From: Fibrobacterota bacterium
GTDB taxonomy: Bacteria; Fibrobacterota; Fibrobacteria; UBA11236
Direction: 5' to 3'
Length of the DNA stretch: 64,000 bases
NCBI GenBank assembly: GCA_028287465.1
Contig: JAQBPO010000062.1
Span: forward strand, 62,001 to 126,000
The notes under the pieces were generated by a model. The model was not told where the DNA came from. It worked only from the letters and a program-made list of their open reading frames with translations, and did not search any database. Within the stretch, counting starts at the first letter, position 1; each line of letters begins with the position of its first letter. This document shows, in pieces, positions 45,245-51,416 of the stretch. The translations under genes were made by a program, and so were the position numbers.

Positions 45245-46786
45245 TTATTCACGACCGCCCCAGCTTCCCCATTTACCTCCGGCGCGGACGCTGGGGATAC
45301 GGATGGCCGGTTTCGAAGTCGTGACCGTGCCCGACCCGGTGGTCCCCGTAGAAGGAGTCGCCGTACCGGTGGTCACCGTGGTGGTCACCACGGGCTGGGG
45401 AGGCGGGGGGTAGGTGTCCATCCAAGGCCCGTCTATCCAAACCCCCGTCCAACCGCCGCAGGTTCCGCCTGAACCCGTGGGGGTATAGGTGGCGCTGCAT
45501 CCTTTGTATTGCGCGCAGGCATGATCCCATCCGGACCCGGTCATGCCGCAATACCATTTTCCATCTTCCTTATTGTGTGCGGTGATGACCTTGCCATTGG
45601 TCCCGCATTGGATTTGATCCCAATCCCAGATTTCCAGGGGCATCATGCAGCAATCGGAGGCTTTGCTGATTTGGGAGCAGATTTCGGCATGGGGGTTCGG
45701 CGTCCCGCCTTGGTTGATGACGCCCCAGTATTCGCGGCAACAGGTGGGCGTAAGCGCCTGGCACTCTGATTTGATGGTCGCGCAGGCTGAATTGGTGCAC
45801 ATGGTCTTCACATCGCCCCAGCCCGCGACCGTTCCGGGAATGGCCGTTCCATCGCAAAAGTTCCCGTTCGCGCAATCGAAGAAATCGTTCCACCAGCCGC
45901 CGTCGCATACGCCCTCGGGCGGGGTGCAGGTGCTTCCGTCCTGGTGTTGGCATTCGATGCAGACCTGGGCGCAGACGCTTCCCGGTTTGCATTCGCCCGC
46001 CGCGATGGCCGCACAGCATTGGTCGCTGCTCTTCCAGGGAGCGATGGCGCAGAAGTCGGTATGGCAAGACGAATTCCATTCGGTCATGTGCACCGAACCC
46101 GTCATGGCGCAGCGGTACAGGCACTTTTCATCGATTCCGTCTTCCGGCCGGATGCCCGGATCCGCGAAGAACTTGTCCATGAAGCCGCAACATTGCCCCG
46201 GGTCATAGCAATTGAAGGAGTTCAGCTTGACCTGGTTCTGGGCCACGGAGGACGCGCCCACGGCCTCGATACGCGCCTTGAGCATGGCGTAGTTGGATGC
46301 CTCCGCGTCCCTTTCCGCCTGGGTCGAGACCTGGCCCAGTTTGTTCTTGGAGGAAAGGTGCGGCGCGATCAGGGTGGCGAACTGCCGGCCCGCGGTGAAA
46401 GCGCCTCCCGAGACAAGGCCCACTTCCACCTCGAGACCCACCACGGCCGTATCAGGGATGCCGGCGATGGAGGGTTTGGGGAAGGTGCGGAAACGGTACT
46501 GGTATTCGCCGGATCCGATCTCGGCGGGGGCGCTCCAGGCCAGGTAAGGGGATCCGGCCTCGGTCAGGGTGGAAACGGCCAGGGCGCTCAGACGCTCGGC
46601 GGTCACGGTGACCGCATCGGTCAGGGCCTTGACCTGGGCCGTCTCCTTCTGGTTGGCGATCACGCCGTGGAAGGCCTTGGTGCCTACCATGGCCAGGATC
46701 ATGAATACCACGAGACCGGTCATGGTCTCGATCAACCCGAAACCGGATTGTCCCTTAGGCACGTATAGATGCATCGTCTTCCTCAT
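45245..46786 (-). CDS. Cysteine-rich PilV-like minor pilin, copy 2
   Basis: A 513-residue class III prepilin. The leader peptide ends SG and the mature protein would begin FGLIETMTGLVVFMILAMVG with Glu at position 5 as required for assembly. A PilV-like region runs to about residue 190. Then comes a long domain with 30 cysteines, including four CC pairs, with WWNDFFDC and CC(A)AIAAG motifs; a Thr/Ser/Pro-rich tail of 80 residues ends in RAGGKWGSWGGRE. It is a tandem paralogue of the gene at 46783, with the same cysteine count, and overlaps its stop by 4 bases. Extracellular disulfide-bonded tip adhesin is my reading; the cysteine domain matches no family I know. Confidence 0.85.
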   Translation of the reverse strand: MRKTMHLYVPKGQSGFGLIETMTGLVVFMILAMVGTKAFHGVIANQKETAQVKALTDAVTVTAERLSALAVSTLTEAGSPYLAWSAPAEIGSGEYQYRFRTFPKPSIAGIPDTAVVGLEVEVGLVSGGAFTAGRQFATLIAPHLSSKNKLGQVSTQAERDAEASNYAMLKARIEAVGASSVAQNQVKLNSFNCYDPGQCCGFMDKFFADPGIRPEDGIDEKCLYRCAMTGSVHMTEWNSSCHTDFCAIAPWKSSDQCCAAIAAGECKPGSVCAQVCIECQHQDGSTCTPPEGVCDGGWWNDFFDCANGNFCDGTAIPGTVAGWGDVKTMCTNSACATIKSECQALTPTCCREYWGVINQGGTPNPHAEICSQISKASDCCMMPLEIWDWDQIQCGTNGKVITAHNKEDGKWYCGMTGSGWDHACAQYKGCSATYTPTGSGGTCGGWTGVWIDGPWMDTYPPPPQPVVTTTVTTGTATPSTGTTGSGTVTTSKPAIRIPSVRAGGKWGSWGGRE

Positions 46787-48291
46787 TCTCGACCGCCTTT
46801 GGAATCTTTAACGGTGCCGCTCCGGTCTGAGCCGGTGCGGCCCTTTCCGCCTGAAGTCGTGGTGGTGCCGCCCGTAGTCGTGGTGGACCCATCGCTCGTT
46901 CCCATCGAACTCGGGAAGGAATGCACGCCGCCTGAACTCGGATCGGGATCGGCCCAGGGATCGGTGGTCCCCGATGGCCAGGCGCCGCATCCGCCGACCC
47001 ACGACGGAGTAAAGGTGGCCGGGCATCCCTGGTTCACCCTGCAATACCGGTCCCAATCGGATCCCGGCGGGGCGCCGCAGTAAATGATGTTCTTGTTGTA
47101 GTACCGGGTCGCGATCACCTTGCCGTCGGCGCTGCATTGGAATTCGTAGAAACCCGCCATCAGCTGGGAATTGCAGCATTGATCCGGGGTGGTGAGGGTG
47201 GCGCAGATCTCGGCTCCGGCCCAAGGCTCCAACCCACCCGCCTTGCGCTGCCAATAGCCGCTGCAGCAGGAAAACACCATGCTTCCGCAGCTCGCGGGGA
47301 TGACCGCGCATTTGGAGGTTTTGCACATGGCCTTCACATTGCCCCATTCCGGGACGATGTCCGGTATGGGCTGGCCGTTGCACAGGGTATTGTTGCCGCA
47401 GTCGAAGAAATCGTTCCACCACCCGTCGTCGCAGGTGACATTGGTATTGCAGGTGCTGCCGTCCTCGCCCAGGCAATCGATGCAGACGTTGGCGCAGATG
47501 CTGCCGGGTTTGCACGTACCCGCCGCGATGGCGGCGCAACAGGACTCCTTAGTCTTCCAGGGAGCCAGGGCGCAGAAATCCGTGCCGCAGGCGCCGTTCC
47601 AAGCCTTGATCTTCACGTCCCCGGCCATGGCGCAACGATAGAGGCATTTCTCATCCAGCCCATCCTGGGGATTCAGGGTCTGATCCTTGAAATAGGACTC
47701 CATGAAGCCGCAACATTGGCCCTTATCGTAACAGCTGAAGGAGTTCAGGCGCAATTGGTTGATGTCGATGGCCGAGGTCGTCACGTTCTGGATCCGGGCC
47801 TGGAGATCCGAATAGAAGGCCGCTTCTGCCGCGCGTTCGGGGGCGGTCGAAACCTTTCCGAGTTTGTCCCGGGAATTGAGATGCGGCGCGATCAGGGTGG
47901 CGAACGAGCGGGACGGGACGAAGGCGCCGGCGCCCGCGTTCCCGATTTCGACCTGGAGCCCGACGACGCTCGTATCCGGGGCCCCGGAAATGGAAGGCGT
48001 GGGGAAGGTGCGGTAGCGGAACCGGTACTCTCCGGACCCGATGTTCTCCGGTGCGCTCCAGGACAGGTATTTCGACCCCCCTTCGGTCAGGGCGGAAACC
48101 GTCAGGGCGCTCAGGCCCTCGGCGGTGACGGTGACCGCATCGGTCAGGGCCTTTACCTGGGCAGTCTCCTTCTGATTCGCGATCACGCCCTTGAACGCCT
48201 TGGTGCCCACCATGGCCAGGATCATGAATACGACGAGACCGGTAAGGGTCTCAAGCAGTCCGAATCCGGATTGCCTTCCGCTTCGCTTCAA
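46783..48291 (-). CDS. Cysteine-rich PilV-like minor pilin, copy 1
   Basis: A 502-residue paralogue of the adjacent gene. The prepilin site is GRQSG then FGLLETLTGLVVFMILAMVG, with Glu5. The pilin stalk (residues 10-180) is almost identical to copy 2 near the N-terminus (GVIANQKETAQVKALTDAVT) and diverges later. The C-terminal domain again has 30 cysteines in the same order (CYDKGQCCGFM, KCLYRCAM, CCAAIAAGTCKPGS, WWNDFFDCG). The tail has Gly/Thr/Ser repeats. The ATG overlaps the PilX-like stop by 4 bases. A duplication inside a minor-pilin operon with retained cysteine framework suggests a heteromeric tip or two-domain specificity. Function unverified. Confidence 0.85.
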   Translation of the reverse strand: MKRSGRQSGFGLLETLTGLVVFMILAMVGTKAFKGVIANQKETAQVKALTDAVTVTAEGLSALTVSALTEGGSKYLSWSAPENIGSGEYRFRYRTFPTPSISGAPDTSVVGLQVEIGNAGAGAFVPSRSFATLIAPHLNSRDKLGKVSTAPERAAEAAFYSDLQARIQNVTTSAIDINQLRLNSFSCYDKGQCCGFMESYFKDQTLNPQDGLDEKCLYRCAMAGDVKIKAWNGACGTDFCALAPWKTKESCCAAIAAGTCKPGSICANVCIDCLGEDGSTCNTNVTCDDGWWNDFFDCGNNTLCNGQPIPDIVPEWGNVKAMCKTSKCAVIPASCGSMVFSCCSGYWQRKAGGLEPWAGAEICATLTTPDQCCNSQLMAGFYEFQCSADGKVIATRYYNKNIIYCGAPPGSDWDRYCRVNQGCPATFTPSWVGGCGAWPSGTTDPWADPDPSSGGVHSFPSSMGTSDGSTTTTGGTTTTSGGKGRTGSDRSGTVKDSKGGRE

Positions 48292-50276
48292 AAGCTCTTC
48301 CTTTTGTAGCCGACGATTTGGGAGGGATTGCGGTCATCCACAACGGGCGCGGGGAACTTCGGGGGATAGGCGACGCCCAGATTGTCGTCGTAGCTCCAGG
48401 ATACGCGGGTGGGATCGCCGTTGCAATCCCAGCCGAGGCTGCACTGGTCCTTGGGGCCCTTGGATCCGTAATTCCGGGTGATGAGCGACCCTTCGAAGGT
48501 GAGCTTCCACCTGGCCCCTTTGGTCCGAGGGAAGGCCAGCACGGCGAACCCGTACTCTTCCAGGATGATGTTGGGGCAGGTCCCGTCCTTGCGGCATTCC
48601 TCTTCGGGCTCCCGCCCGAATCCGGATTGCGCGACGCGGCCGTCGTCCCAGATGTAATTGTCGGAGATGTATTTGGAGAAGTCGACCGTGCTGCCCGGGG
48701 CCGGCACGTTGGCGGGATCGAAGACCTCGCGCCGGCAGACATAGCCGTATTTCCAATCCGGGTCCGAGCCCCCGCCGTCGACGCGGTCGTCATAGACGAT
48801 CTCGTCATTCTCGGCCAGGATGGCCGCCCGGATGGTCAGGTCCCGCGAGGAGCTTTCATGCACGTAGACGCGGTCCTGCGCGATAAGGCCCAAGGTGACC
48901 GGGAGGTTGTTCGCGTCCACCTCGGTCTTTTCGGGACCGATGAAATCCCCGTACAGGAAGATATCGTCCCCGGCCGCGATGGTGATGGGGATTTGCTTGA
49001 GTTTGCCGGTTACGTAGATGTCGCCCGGGAAGTAAAGGATCGCGTTGTCCTTGAAATCGCTCAGCTTGCGGACGTATTTGCGCGCGGGGGTTCCCAGCAC
49101 GAACCAGTCCAGGCCGTCCCCGCCGGCATCGTAGACCACGGGGGAAACGGTGACCTCGATGTTCCCGCCGTTGATCACGATCTGCGACAGGTCGATGGCC
49201 ACGGCGCTTCCGGCCACCACCACGGGGCTGCGGCGGGTGCGGCTCAGGGTATCGTAGCATCCCAAGAAAAGAGTATCGCAAGGCCCGGTGGTATGGCAGC
49301 CGCCGGGCCCGCCGTTCAGCCTGGACCAGGAAGGGTTCTTGGGTCCGGCATCGTTCCCGAACAGCTCGATGCCGCCGTTACGGGCCATGTATTGGAAGGT
49401 GGACGAGTACTTGCTGTTGTCGTAGAGGTAGTTGTCCCAGGAATTGATATGCACGTGGTTCAACGTCGGGATATCCGTCTGCTTCTCGCGGAATCCGAAA
49501 TCGTATTGGCCGGCGGGCCGGTTCTGGATGCCGCCGCCCGTGCTGACCAGGCGCGTGAAGGTCACGGTGGGACTGGTGAGATCGATGTCCCCGGCGACGA
49601 GGATTTCCCCGTCCACCAGGGTCCCGCCGGTATAGACCAGGGTGCTGGGGCCTTCCACGTATCTGGCGTATTTCGCGAGACTGGGTACGCGGAGCACGCC
49701 TTGCACCGATTCATACCGTGAGCGGGGCTTGGTCGGGTCCTTCACCCCCTGGACGTTCAACTCGATGGAAAGCGGCACGTCGGTGACCTGGAAGGTCTGA
49801 AGGCGGAAACTTCCCATCTCCGTGCTCCCGAACCCGATGCGCTGCCACCCGAGGCCCGATTGGGTCCCCAGGAACTGGCGCACCAGCTTGGCCCCGCCTT
49901 GACGGTTCAGCTCGGTCACCCGGGTCTTGATATAGTTGAAGCCCGCGTCCGCCAGGTAGAACTCCTGGGTCGCCTTCATGGTCTTGACGGTATCGACCCG
50001 GCTCCGGCCGCTGCGGCCCGCCACCAGGAATAGAGTCAGACCCAGGACCAGGCCGATGCCCAGGACGACCGCGAGGGTTGCCCCGCGCTGGGCTTGGAGG
50101 CGGTCAGCGGAAGAAGGATTCTTGCAAATCGGAAATCGAAAATTGGAATTCGAAAACCGGCTTATTGCCCGCTCTTTGGGCTCAAACCGTTTTCCGGGAC
50201 CAAAGGGAGCAGGTCCCTGTCTTCCGATTTGCAGTTTGCAATTTCCGATTTCCGATTTGCAAAGCCGTTTTCGCAT
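48288..50276 (-). CDS. PilX-like minor pilin with repeat-derived N-terminus
   Basis: The 662-residue protein has a hydrophobic segment GATLAVVLGIGLVLGLTLFL at about residues 66-85 followed by EFYLADAGFNYIKTRV, the PilX pattern where AxAG ends the stalk. The rest is beta-rich with QFPL-like strands, VVVAGSAVAI, a long region of Asp/Gly turns and a C-terminal QIVGYKRKSF. The first about 55 residues, from the only available ATG at 50276, are encoded by a repeat (see 50122-50262) and look unlike any pilin leader. Either the true start is different or the repeat has been incorporated. It is second in the operon after PilW and overlaps copy 1 by 4 bases. Confidence 0.75.
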   Translation of the reverse strand: MRKRLCKSEIGNCKLQIGRQGPAPFGPGKRFEPKERAISRFSNSNFRFPICKNPSSADRLQAQRGATLAVVLGIGLVLGLTLFLVAGRSGRSRVDTVKTMKATQEFYLADAGFNYIKTRVTELNRQGGAKLVRQFLGTQSGLGWQRIGFGSTEMGSFRLQTFQVTDVPLSIELNVQGVKDPTKPRSRYESVQGVLRVPSLAKYARYVEGPSTLVYTGGTLVDGEILVAGDIDLTSPTVTFTRLVSTGGGIQNRPAGQYDFGFREKQTDIPTLNHVHINSWDNYLYDNSKYSSTFQYMARNGGIELFGNDAGPKNPSWSRLNGGPGGCHTTGPCDTLFLGCYDTLSRTRRSPVVVAGSAVAIDLSQIVINGGNIEVTVSPVVYDAGGDGLDWFVLGTPARKYVRKLSDFKDNAILYFPGDIYVTGKLKQIPITIAAGDDIFLYGDFIGPEKTEVDANNLPVTLGLIAQDRVYVHESSSRDLTIRAAILAENDEIVYDDRVDGGGSDPDWKYGYVCRREVFDPANVPAPGSTVDFSKYISDNYIWDDGRVAQSGFGREPEEECRKDGTCPNIILEEYGFAVLAFPRTKGARWKLTFEGSLITRNYGSKGPKDQCSLGWDCNGDPTRVSWSYDDNLGVAYPPKFPAPVVDDRNPSQIVGYKRKSF
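50122..50262. repeat. 17-bp inverted repeat pair and iterated AT-rich motif
   Basis: TTGCAAATCGGAAATCG at 50122-50138 recurs as its exact reverse complement at 50246-50262, with 107 bases between. On the minus strand around 50220-50275 the motif AAATCGGAAAT/TGCAAA is iterated imperfectly. It lies within the coding frame of the PilX-like gene. Confidence 0.8.
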
Positions 50277-50303: not shown

Positions 50304-51110
50304 TCAGAATCCCCTCACGAACACCGTCTGATCCGATCGCCTGGCCAAGGTGATGTTGGATCGCTGGGTCTTGGACGCGAAGGTCAGCGAGTAGGCGATC
50401 TGGCCCGCCTGCCGATCGATGGATTTGACCTTGAATTCCAGGGAATCCCCCGGATGGCTGCTGGGAACGAAATCACGGTTGAATCCGGGCGCGCCGTTCG
50501 CCCCTTCCCGCGATACCTGGAGGGTCTGATTCTGGCCGCGGTAGATGCGCACTCGCTCCAGGGGGAAGATCATGGTGCCCTTGGGATAGTACGCGAAGAA
50601 ATCGTTCTCGAAGGAAACGGTCGTTCCGCTGATGGAGGTCACGCGGGTCACCTCCTGGGCGCTTCCCGCGTAGATGTAGGCGTATCCGCCCACCTTGAAG
50701 AGCCCGGGCTTGTCTGTCTTGAGCCACCGCTGGTTCTTGTTGAGGACCGGCACCTCGAGGAACCCTGCGCTGCCGGAATAGTTGCCGTAAACGGAAAGGG
50801 AGGTGGAGTCCGGGGTCACTTCGAAAACCCGGTGCCCGCCGTTGATGATGGGCGAGGAAAGCTTGCGATGCGGATCGAAGAAAAGGGAGTCCCCGGAAAC
50901 GCCTCCCGCCACGAGGTAGCGGTTGATGCACTCCACGGAATTGCGGAGCGCTTCCTGCAGGCTCGTCACCTGCTTTTGGCGTTCCAGATGCGCCATGAAA
51001 TTCCGGTAGAAGGTGAAGGCGACGGTGCAAACGATGGAAGTGATGACCAGGGTCACCAGTATTTCCACCAGGGTCATTCCCCGGCTCTTTTCGAAGGTGT
51101 TTTTTTGCAT
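50304..51110 (-). CDS. PilW-like minor pilin
   Basis: A 268-residue class III prepilin, first gene of the operon. The leader ends KSRG and the mature end is MTLVEILVTLVITSIVCTVAF with Glu5, so it should be cleaved and methylated by the prepilin peptidase. The helical stalk is followed by a beta-rich head (SLSVYGNYSGSAGFLEVPVL; GGYAYIYAGSAQEVTRV). One Cys lies in the stalk. PilW initiates minor pilin complexes that cap type IV pili or type II-like pseudopili. The ATG at 51110 is chosen for the leader length; longer starts to 51272 lack a leader. A minus-strand -10 TATAAT at 51183-51178 lies 68 bases upstream. Confidence 0.85.
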   Translation of the reverse strand: MQKNTFEKSRGMTLVEILVTLVITSIVCTVAFTFYRNFMAHLERQKQVTSLQEALRNSVECINRYLVAGGVSGDSLFFDPHRKLSSPIINGGHRVFEVTPDSTSLSVYGNYSGSAGFLEVPVLNKNQRWLKTDKPGLFKVGGYAYIYAGSAQEVTRVTSISGTTVSFENDFFAYYPKGTMIFPLERVRIYRGQNQTLQVSREGANGAPGFNRDFVPSSHPGDSLEFKVKSIDRQAGQIAYSLTFASKTQRSNITLARRSDQTVFVRGF

Positions 51111-51416
51111 ATCCCAGCGTCGGCAACCCATTGGGGCGGAAAATTCCGCCACGCAACCCCACCGCCACTTTCGCTGAATTATATAGCCTGCCCAACAACT
51201 CCAACCATATATCTCGCGACGGATCGCGGATTTGACCTGATAGTGGCGTTGGGCCCCGGGGATTGGCCCCATCCGGGGATGTCCTCCGGCGTTTTTTAAT
51301 TAAATTCACCCTAATCAGGGCGCGCCGAATCGCGCCTGCGCTTCGCTATCGTCGCGGGATTCCTACTCCGGCGCTGGGTAATTTGGGATTATAGGGAAAA
51401 AAGAGTTCGCCAAAGC
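51111..51416. other. Divergent spacer between the pilin operon and alaS
   Basis: About 306 bases without a gene. On the minus strand a TATAAT at 51183-51178 with a TTGGAG 15 bases upstream (51204-51199) may drive the pilin operon; the spacing is short. Palindrome GGCGGAA-AA-TTCCGCC (51135-51150) lies between it and pilW. The alaS side is AT-rich at 51294-51310 and has a hairpin GGCGCG/CGCGCC at 51319-51336. No T-box-like specifier structure was recognised. Confidence 0.4.

Follow-up and report, generated by a model that had tools for sequence, protein, structure and literature searches.

Two adjacent genes for PilV-like pilins, each extended by a module with 30 cysteines, raise the question of what such a module does on a pilin. 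They lie in the 64,000-nucleotide stretch of Fibrobacterota DNA analysed here (the window), and the gene pair claimed by the original prediction is real, with exact coordinates and reading frames. The features of the locus, including the two genes upstream, are as follows (a slash marks the prepilin cleavage site).

45245..46786, minus strand: P0001, second-copy Cys pilin, 513 aa
45458..46210, minus strand: 30-Cys module of P0001, C193 to C443
46783..48291, minus strand: P0002, first-copy Cys pilin, 502 aa, TTG start
46987..47733, minus strand: 30-Cys module of P0002, C187 to C435
48288..50276, minus strand: P0003, PilX/GspK-like minor pilin, 662 aa, G/ATLAVV site
50304..51110, minus strand: P0004, PilW/GspJ-like minor pilin, probable start Met55 at 51110

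Architecture of the gene pair and its neighbours

P0001 is organised as a prepilin leader, an alpha-1 stalk, a PilV/GspI-like head, the 30-Cys domain (residues 193–443) and a tail ending in GGRE, and P0002 has the same layout with its domain at residues 187–435. The module, of about 250 residues, sits C-terminal to the pilin head, past residue 190, and is followed in both proteins by a low-complexity tail. The prepilin sites, QSG/FGLIE in P0001 (cleavage after G15, with E20 at +5) and QSG/FGLLE in P0002, show the class III prepilin signature: G at −1, E at +5 and a hydrophobic helix behind them. The Pfam N_methyl model matched P0001 with an E-value of 5.5e-4, slightly short of the Pfam cut-off, and exceeded it when the genome was searched (C100:108685-108756). 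P0001 and P0002 are very likely modular minor pilins. They are 59% identical over 449 residues, with identity falling from 93% in alpha-1 (residues 13–66) to 63% in the remaining pilin head, 50% in the Cys domain and 35% in the tail. The claim of a near-identical pilin stalk and prepilin site therefore stands for alpha-1 and fails for the rest of the head, while the low-complexity tails diverge as had been described, yet share a common end. This end, R....R.G....S.GGRE, closes all eight Cys pilins found (GGHE in one copy) after the variable tail, those encoded by the final gene of an operon included, raising the question of a docking or sorting peptide.

The TTG start of P0002 overlaps the pilX stop and the ATG of P0001 overlaps the P0002 stop, so that the three genes are probably translationally coupled. 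The upstream partners PilW and PilX are the counterparts of GspJ and GspK. K subunits lack Glu5, as does the PilX protein P0003, whose eight ectodomain cysteines are kept in four of four orthologues. The open frame of the PilW gene (P0004) starts at 51272, but translation of the prepilin probably begins at Met55 (51110), yielding MQKNTFEKSRG/MTLVE. The region coding for the long N-terminal leader of PilX (window positions 50122–50262) contains a pair of 39-base inverted repeats, 82% complementary and 63 bases apart; a similar-looking leader is found in the G159 orthologue, and the element may be a mobile intergenic repeat translated in frame.

The 30-cysteine domain

P0001 and P0002 each contain 30 cysteines in the same order and with nearly equal spacing, including the four CC pairs and the WWNDFFDC motif, in agreement with the original prediction. 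All 30 are invariant in eight homologues from four genomes, none of which has an extra cysteine; outside the cysteines, 43 of the domain's 216 gap-free columns are invariant. This pattern is not due to chance. An even number, complete conservation and the lack of stray cysteines fit 15 disulfides in an exported protein, and the cysteines are likely to be fully paired. DsbA-like proteins are encoded by all six genomes of the genus, in which VKOR was not found. Adjoining the pilB-pilT-pilC genes is a gene (L074:8068-8580) for a lipoprotein-like product that has a WCQPC site of the thioredoxin type.

The high cysteine content, with one CxxC in each Cys pilin, could alternatively reflect binding of metal or haem, the pilin then being a redox or electron-transfer part. 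We consider this very improbable: neither P0001 nor P0002 has a CxxCH haem-binding motif, the domain has no invariant His and just four invariant Asp in the eight homologues, and an even set of 30 with no extra cysteine is what full pairing predicts. A haem or metal protein was thus rejected as the main reading for want of CxxCH.

The domain, searched with its eight members, had no match in Pfam, and no sequence relative was found in NCBIfam, PHROG or the PDB. No curated model of the EGF, TIL or lectin families matched either, a comparison made at the sequence level that leaves room for a common fold; the framework is, as had been suspected, unlike these described families. Apart from N_methyl, P0001 and P0002 had no Pfam match, and the PF05567 beta-propeller of PilY1/PilC adhesins is absent from both. 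Profile self-comparison detected no internal repeats in the domain, the viral contigs and plasmids searched held no relatives of the Cys pilins, and the literature searched, with partial coverage, contained no description of minor pilins with this framework. Structure prediction, which the original prediction had put forward for this domain, yielded a model, though one of low confidence: modelled alone, the domain reached a pLDDT of 60.9, its secondary structure consisting of short helices plus a small sheet at the C-terminus. A fold search with it returned no match, an outcome that does not distinguish a new fold from a known one, and the module showed no recognisable ligand-binding residues.

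Distribution, loss and evolution of the operon

The search of Fibrobacterota for the cysteine framework recovered the eight homologues from four of the six genomes of the genus (G000, G155, G157 and G159) and no further copy of the domain in the other 162 of the 168 Fibrobacterota genomes searched. Elsewhere in the phylum, profile matches had E-values of 0.001–1 only and covered mostly the prepilin N-terminus; a weak match in G033 contained internal stop codons and was taken as chance. A pattern scan of genome contigs, which picks up close relatives only and so leaves lower-identity relatives in other phyla possible, identified two loci on contigs named as Fibrobacteres/Fibrobacteria MAGs, and these are those of G159 and G155. 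The 30-Cys domain has so far been found in one Fibrobacterota genus only.

Gene order is the same in the four operon-bearing genomes, with a divergent alaS, then pilW, pilX and the Cys pilins, of which one copy is seen in G155, two each in G000 and G159, and three in G157. Checked as the original prediction had suggested, the domain follows PilW and PilX at 4/4 loci, and no operon of this context was found without it: it accompanies the pilW-pilX pair throughout and is missing where the pair is missing. The genes rmlD, dnaG and rpoD lie downstream in three of the four loci, whereas the G155 contig continues otherwise. There, beside the single-copy operon, a kelch-like repeat protein with WVIGG..NDVW.S.DGK.W repeats (L029:1-1380) is found in place of rmlD-dnaG.

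The entire operon is missing from G156 and G158, in which alaS, rmlD, dnaG and rpoD are intact and adjacent and the alaS-rmlD gap measures 58 and 262 bases, respectively. When the flanking proteins are placed on a tree, the nearest relative of G158 is G159 and the sister of G156 is G157; each of these relatives carries the operon, and loss on two occasions is the most parsimonious account. The operon behaves as a single functional unit that is lost whole.

Fibrobacterota are known for polymer attachment, and a polysaccharide ligand had been proposed to match glycoside hydrolases encoded nearby. The gene context does not bear out this link. The operon is flanked by housekeeping genes (alaS on one side; rmlD, dnaG and rpoD on the other) and comes and goes independently of them, and a scan of ten window proteins brought up a single glycoside hydrolase, an alpha-amylase-type domain at a distance of some 42 kb. 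Nearby glycoside hydrolases were therefore rejected as evidence for such a ligand.

The two parts of the Cys pilins have had different histories. The stalk (residues 13–66) clusters by genome, save for the long-branched single copy of G155, whereas the Cys domain and the tail cluster by operon position across genomes, tail divergence showing the same position-wise pattern as the domain. Compared in this way, the first copies from three genomes share 71–73% identity with one another and 45–53% with the remaining copies in the same genome. In the G000/G159 quartet, informative sites grouping the copies by genome or by position stand at 13:2 in the stalk and 18:101 in the Cys domain (Fisher p 4e-8), and at 7:1 and 8:27 when third codon positions alone are counted (p 0.001). 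Other genome pairs agree over all sites (p 1e-8 to 2e-5); the third-position test was not significant for G159 versus G157. Judging from these site patterns, the uniformity of the stalk within a genome is likely caused by gene conversion. Such conversion suits copies that must fit the same filament yet expose different modules, and the contrast of a homogenised stalk with modules conserved separately is direct evolutionary evidence for different jobs of the two parts.

The same data bear on whether the module could be mainly a structural cap or a force sensor. The module is disulfide-rich and would occupy a force-exposed position, and surface signalling in P. aeruginosa requires a cysteine in the vWA domain of PilY1, as cited in PMC13190605. 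However, the module lineages have been kept over the genus and copies are only about 50% identical to one another, which suggests different partners, and a mere cap would need none; we consider a cap or sensor quite unlikely.

Place in the filament and comparison with known systems

The model of the full Cys pilin was weak (mean pLDDT 49.8), with a pilin head at a pLDDT of about 60–79 that forms one long helix and four strands. Five of the six top structural matches of this part of the weak model were I subunits (GspI, XcpV, EpsI), as read from entry title and chain length, with middling Z scores of 5.7–6.5, rmsd of 2.7–3.6 and 77–88 residues aligned; the sixth was a chain of a whole-pseudopilus model. 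None of the NCBIfam PilV/GspI models scored above cut-off for the Cys pilins. The middling I-subunit score agrees with the gene order, and the pilin part may be said, on a weak model, to have a GspI/PilV-type fold.

This resemblance supports the main rival explanation, in which the Cys pilins would belong to a type II secretion pseudopilus and the periplasmic module would capture or push secretion substrates. The head is most like GspI, PilW and PilX correspond to GspJ and GspK, and the genome has several GspE/PilB-type ATPases, there being eight PilB/PilT/GspE-family matches in all. On the other hand, GspI proteins are small, the solved chains having about 80–90 residues and no 250-residue Cys module, and I-subunit modules of such size are not described in the literature searched. 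In addition, species differ in how many Cys pilin copies they have, the operon includes no linked substrate gene, and PilT-type ATPases and PilM in the genome make a true pilus available. The genome holds a PilB-PilT-PilC set, and its PilM is clustered with a PilN-like protein and a secretin. A role in secretion is thus unlikely in our view, if worth keeping in mind.

We favour, with a probability of roughly 0.55, the explanation that PilV-class modular minor pilins, together with PilW and PilX, display distinct disulfide-locked ligand-binding modules on a common stalk at the tip of a pilus. Each Cys pilin would be cleaved by prepilin peptidase and brought into the filament by its alpha-1 stalk, and, as a protein of the PilV/GspI (I-subunit) class, would form a tip complex with the J-like PilW and the K-like PilX of its operon, partners that are encoded with it at all four loci; the operon has neither an H (FimU) gene nor a major pilin gene. 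The module of about 250 residues beyond the head would fold in the periplasm, locked by 15 disulfides, and be followed by a flexible Thr/Ser/Gly/Pro tail with its conserved end. By analogy with other modular pilins, the module most likely serves as a rigid head at the tip of the pilus, where it would bind a ligand (surface, polymer or partner cell) and withstand pulling force, and the disulfide-rigid tip adhesin first suggested for this locus is plausible. The two or three copies per genome would carry distinct modules of long standing, which probably differ in their ligands or partners, the common stalk being kept uniform by gene conversion.

The closest precedent is the set of modular pilins of S. 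sanguinis, PilB with a vWA module and PilC with a lectin module, whose adhesive modules were modelled at the tip (PMC8179133, PMC9934059). Like them, the Cys pilins carry a class III signal peptide and an added C-terminal module, come as several members of one system and are expected at the tip; they differ in their 30-Cys module of no known family, PilV/GspI-like head, tandem arrangement, homogenised stalk and diderm host. The type IVa PilV-PilW-PilX-FimU/PilY1 tip complex of Pseudomonas and Myxococcus likewise combines PilW and PilX with a PilV-like subunit, as this operon does. Unlike that complex, the operon has no PilY1, and the PilV-like subunit itself bears the large Cys module. Some PilY1 proteins are themselves Cys-rich, with 7 to 30 or more cysteines (PMC13190605). 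The Pfam PilY1 model (PF05567) matched none of the 168 Fibrobacterota genomes, and no control genome either. In CofB, TcpB and ComZ, too, a minor pilin carries a large extra domain through which a binding function is displayed or recruited (PMC8179133); these domains are beta-rich and lack the 30-Cys framework, and no sequence relation to the Cys pilins was found.

Modular pilins as such are already known, and the 30-Cys module on them is new. Many modules undefined in databases are expected on modular pilins (PMC8179133), and the 30-Cys domain would be one of them, with an unusually dense conserved disulfide framework. Going further, and only tentatively, one may picture a genus-specific tip system in which two to three PilV-class pilins share one gene-converted stalk and carry separate 15-disulfide modules of new fold, so that several rigid heads per pilus replace PilY1; we hold this possible rather than probable. 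With a single stalk that naturally bears two to three tip modules, and operon-less close relatives as natural controls, the locus offers a clean test case.

The same genome encodes a separate FimU/PilV/PilW/PilX-like set in which the PilX-like minor pilin has a PA14 domain (L072:7280-9076, on contig C73 of G000). PA14 domains bind carbohydrate elsewhere, and this protein is another modular pilin, with a module that is likely carbohydrate-binding; modular minor pilins are thus used at least twice in this genome.
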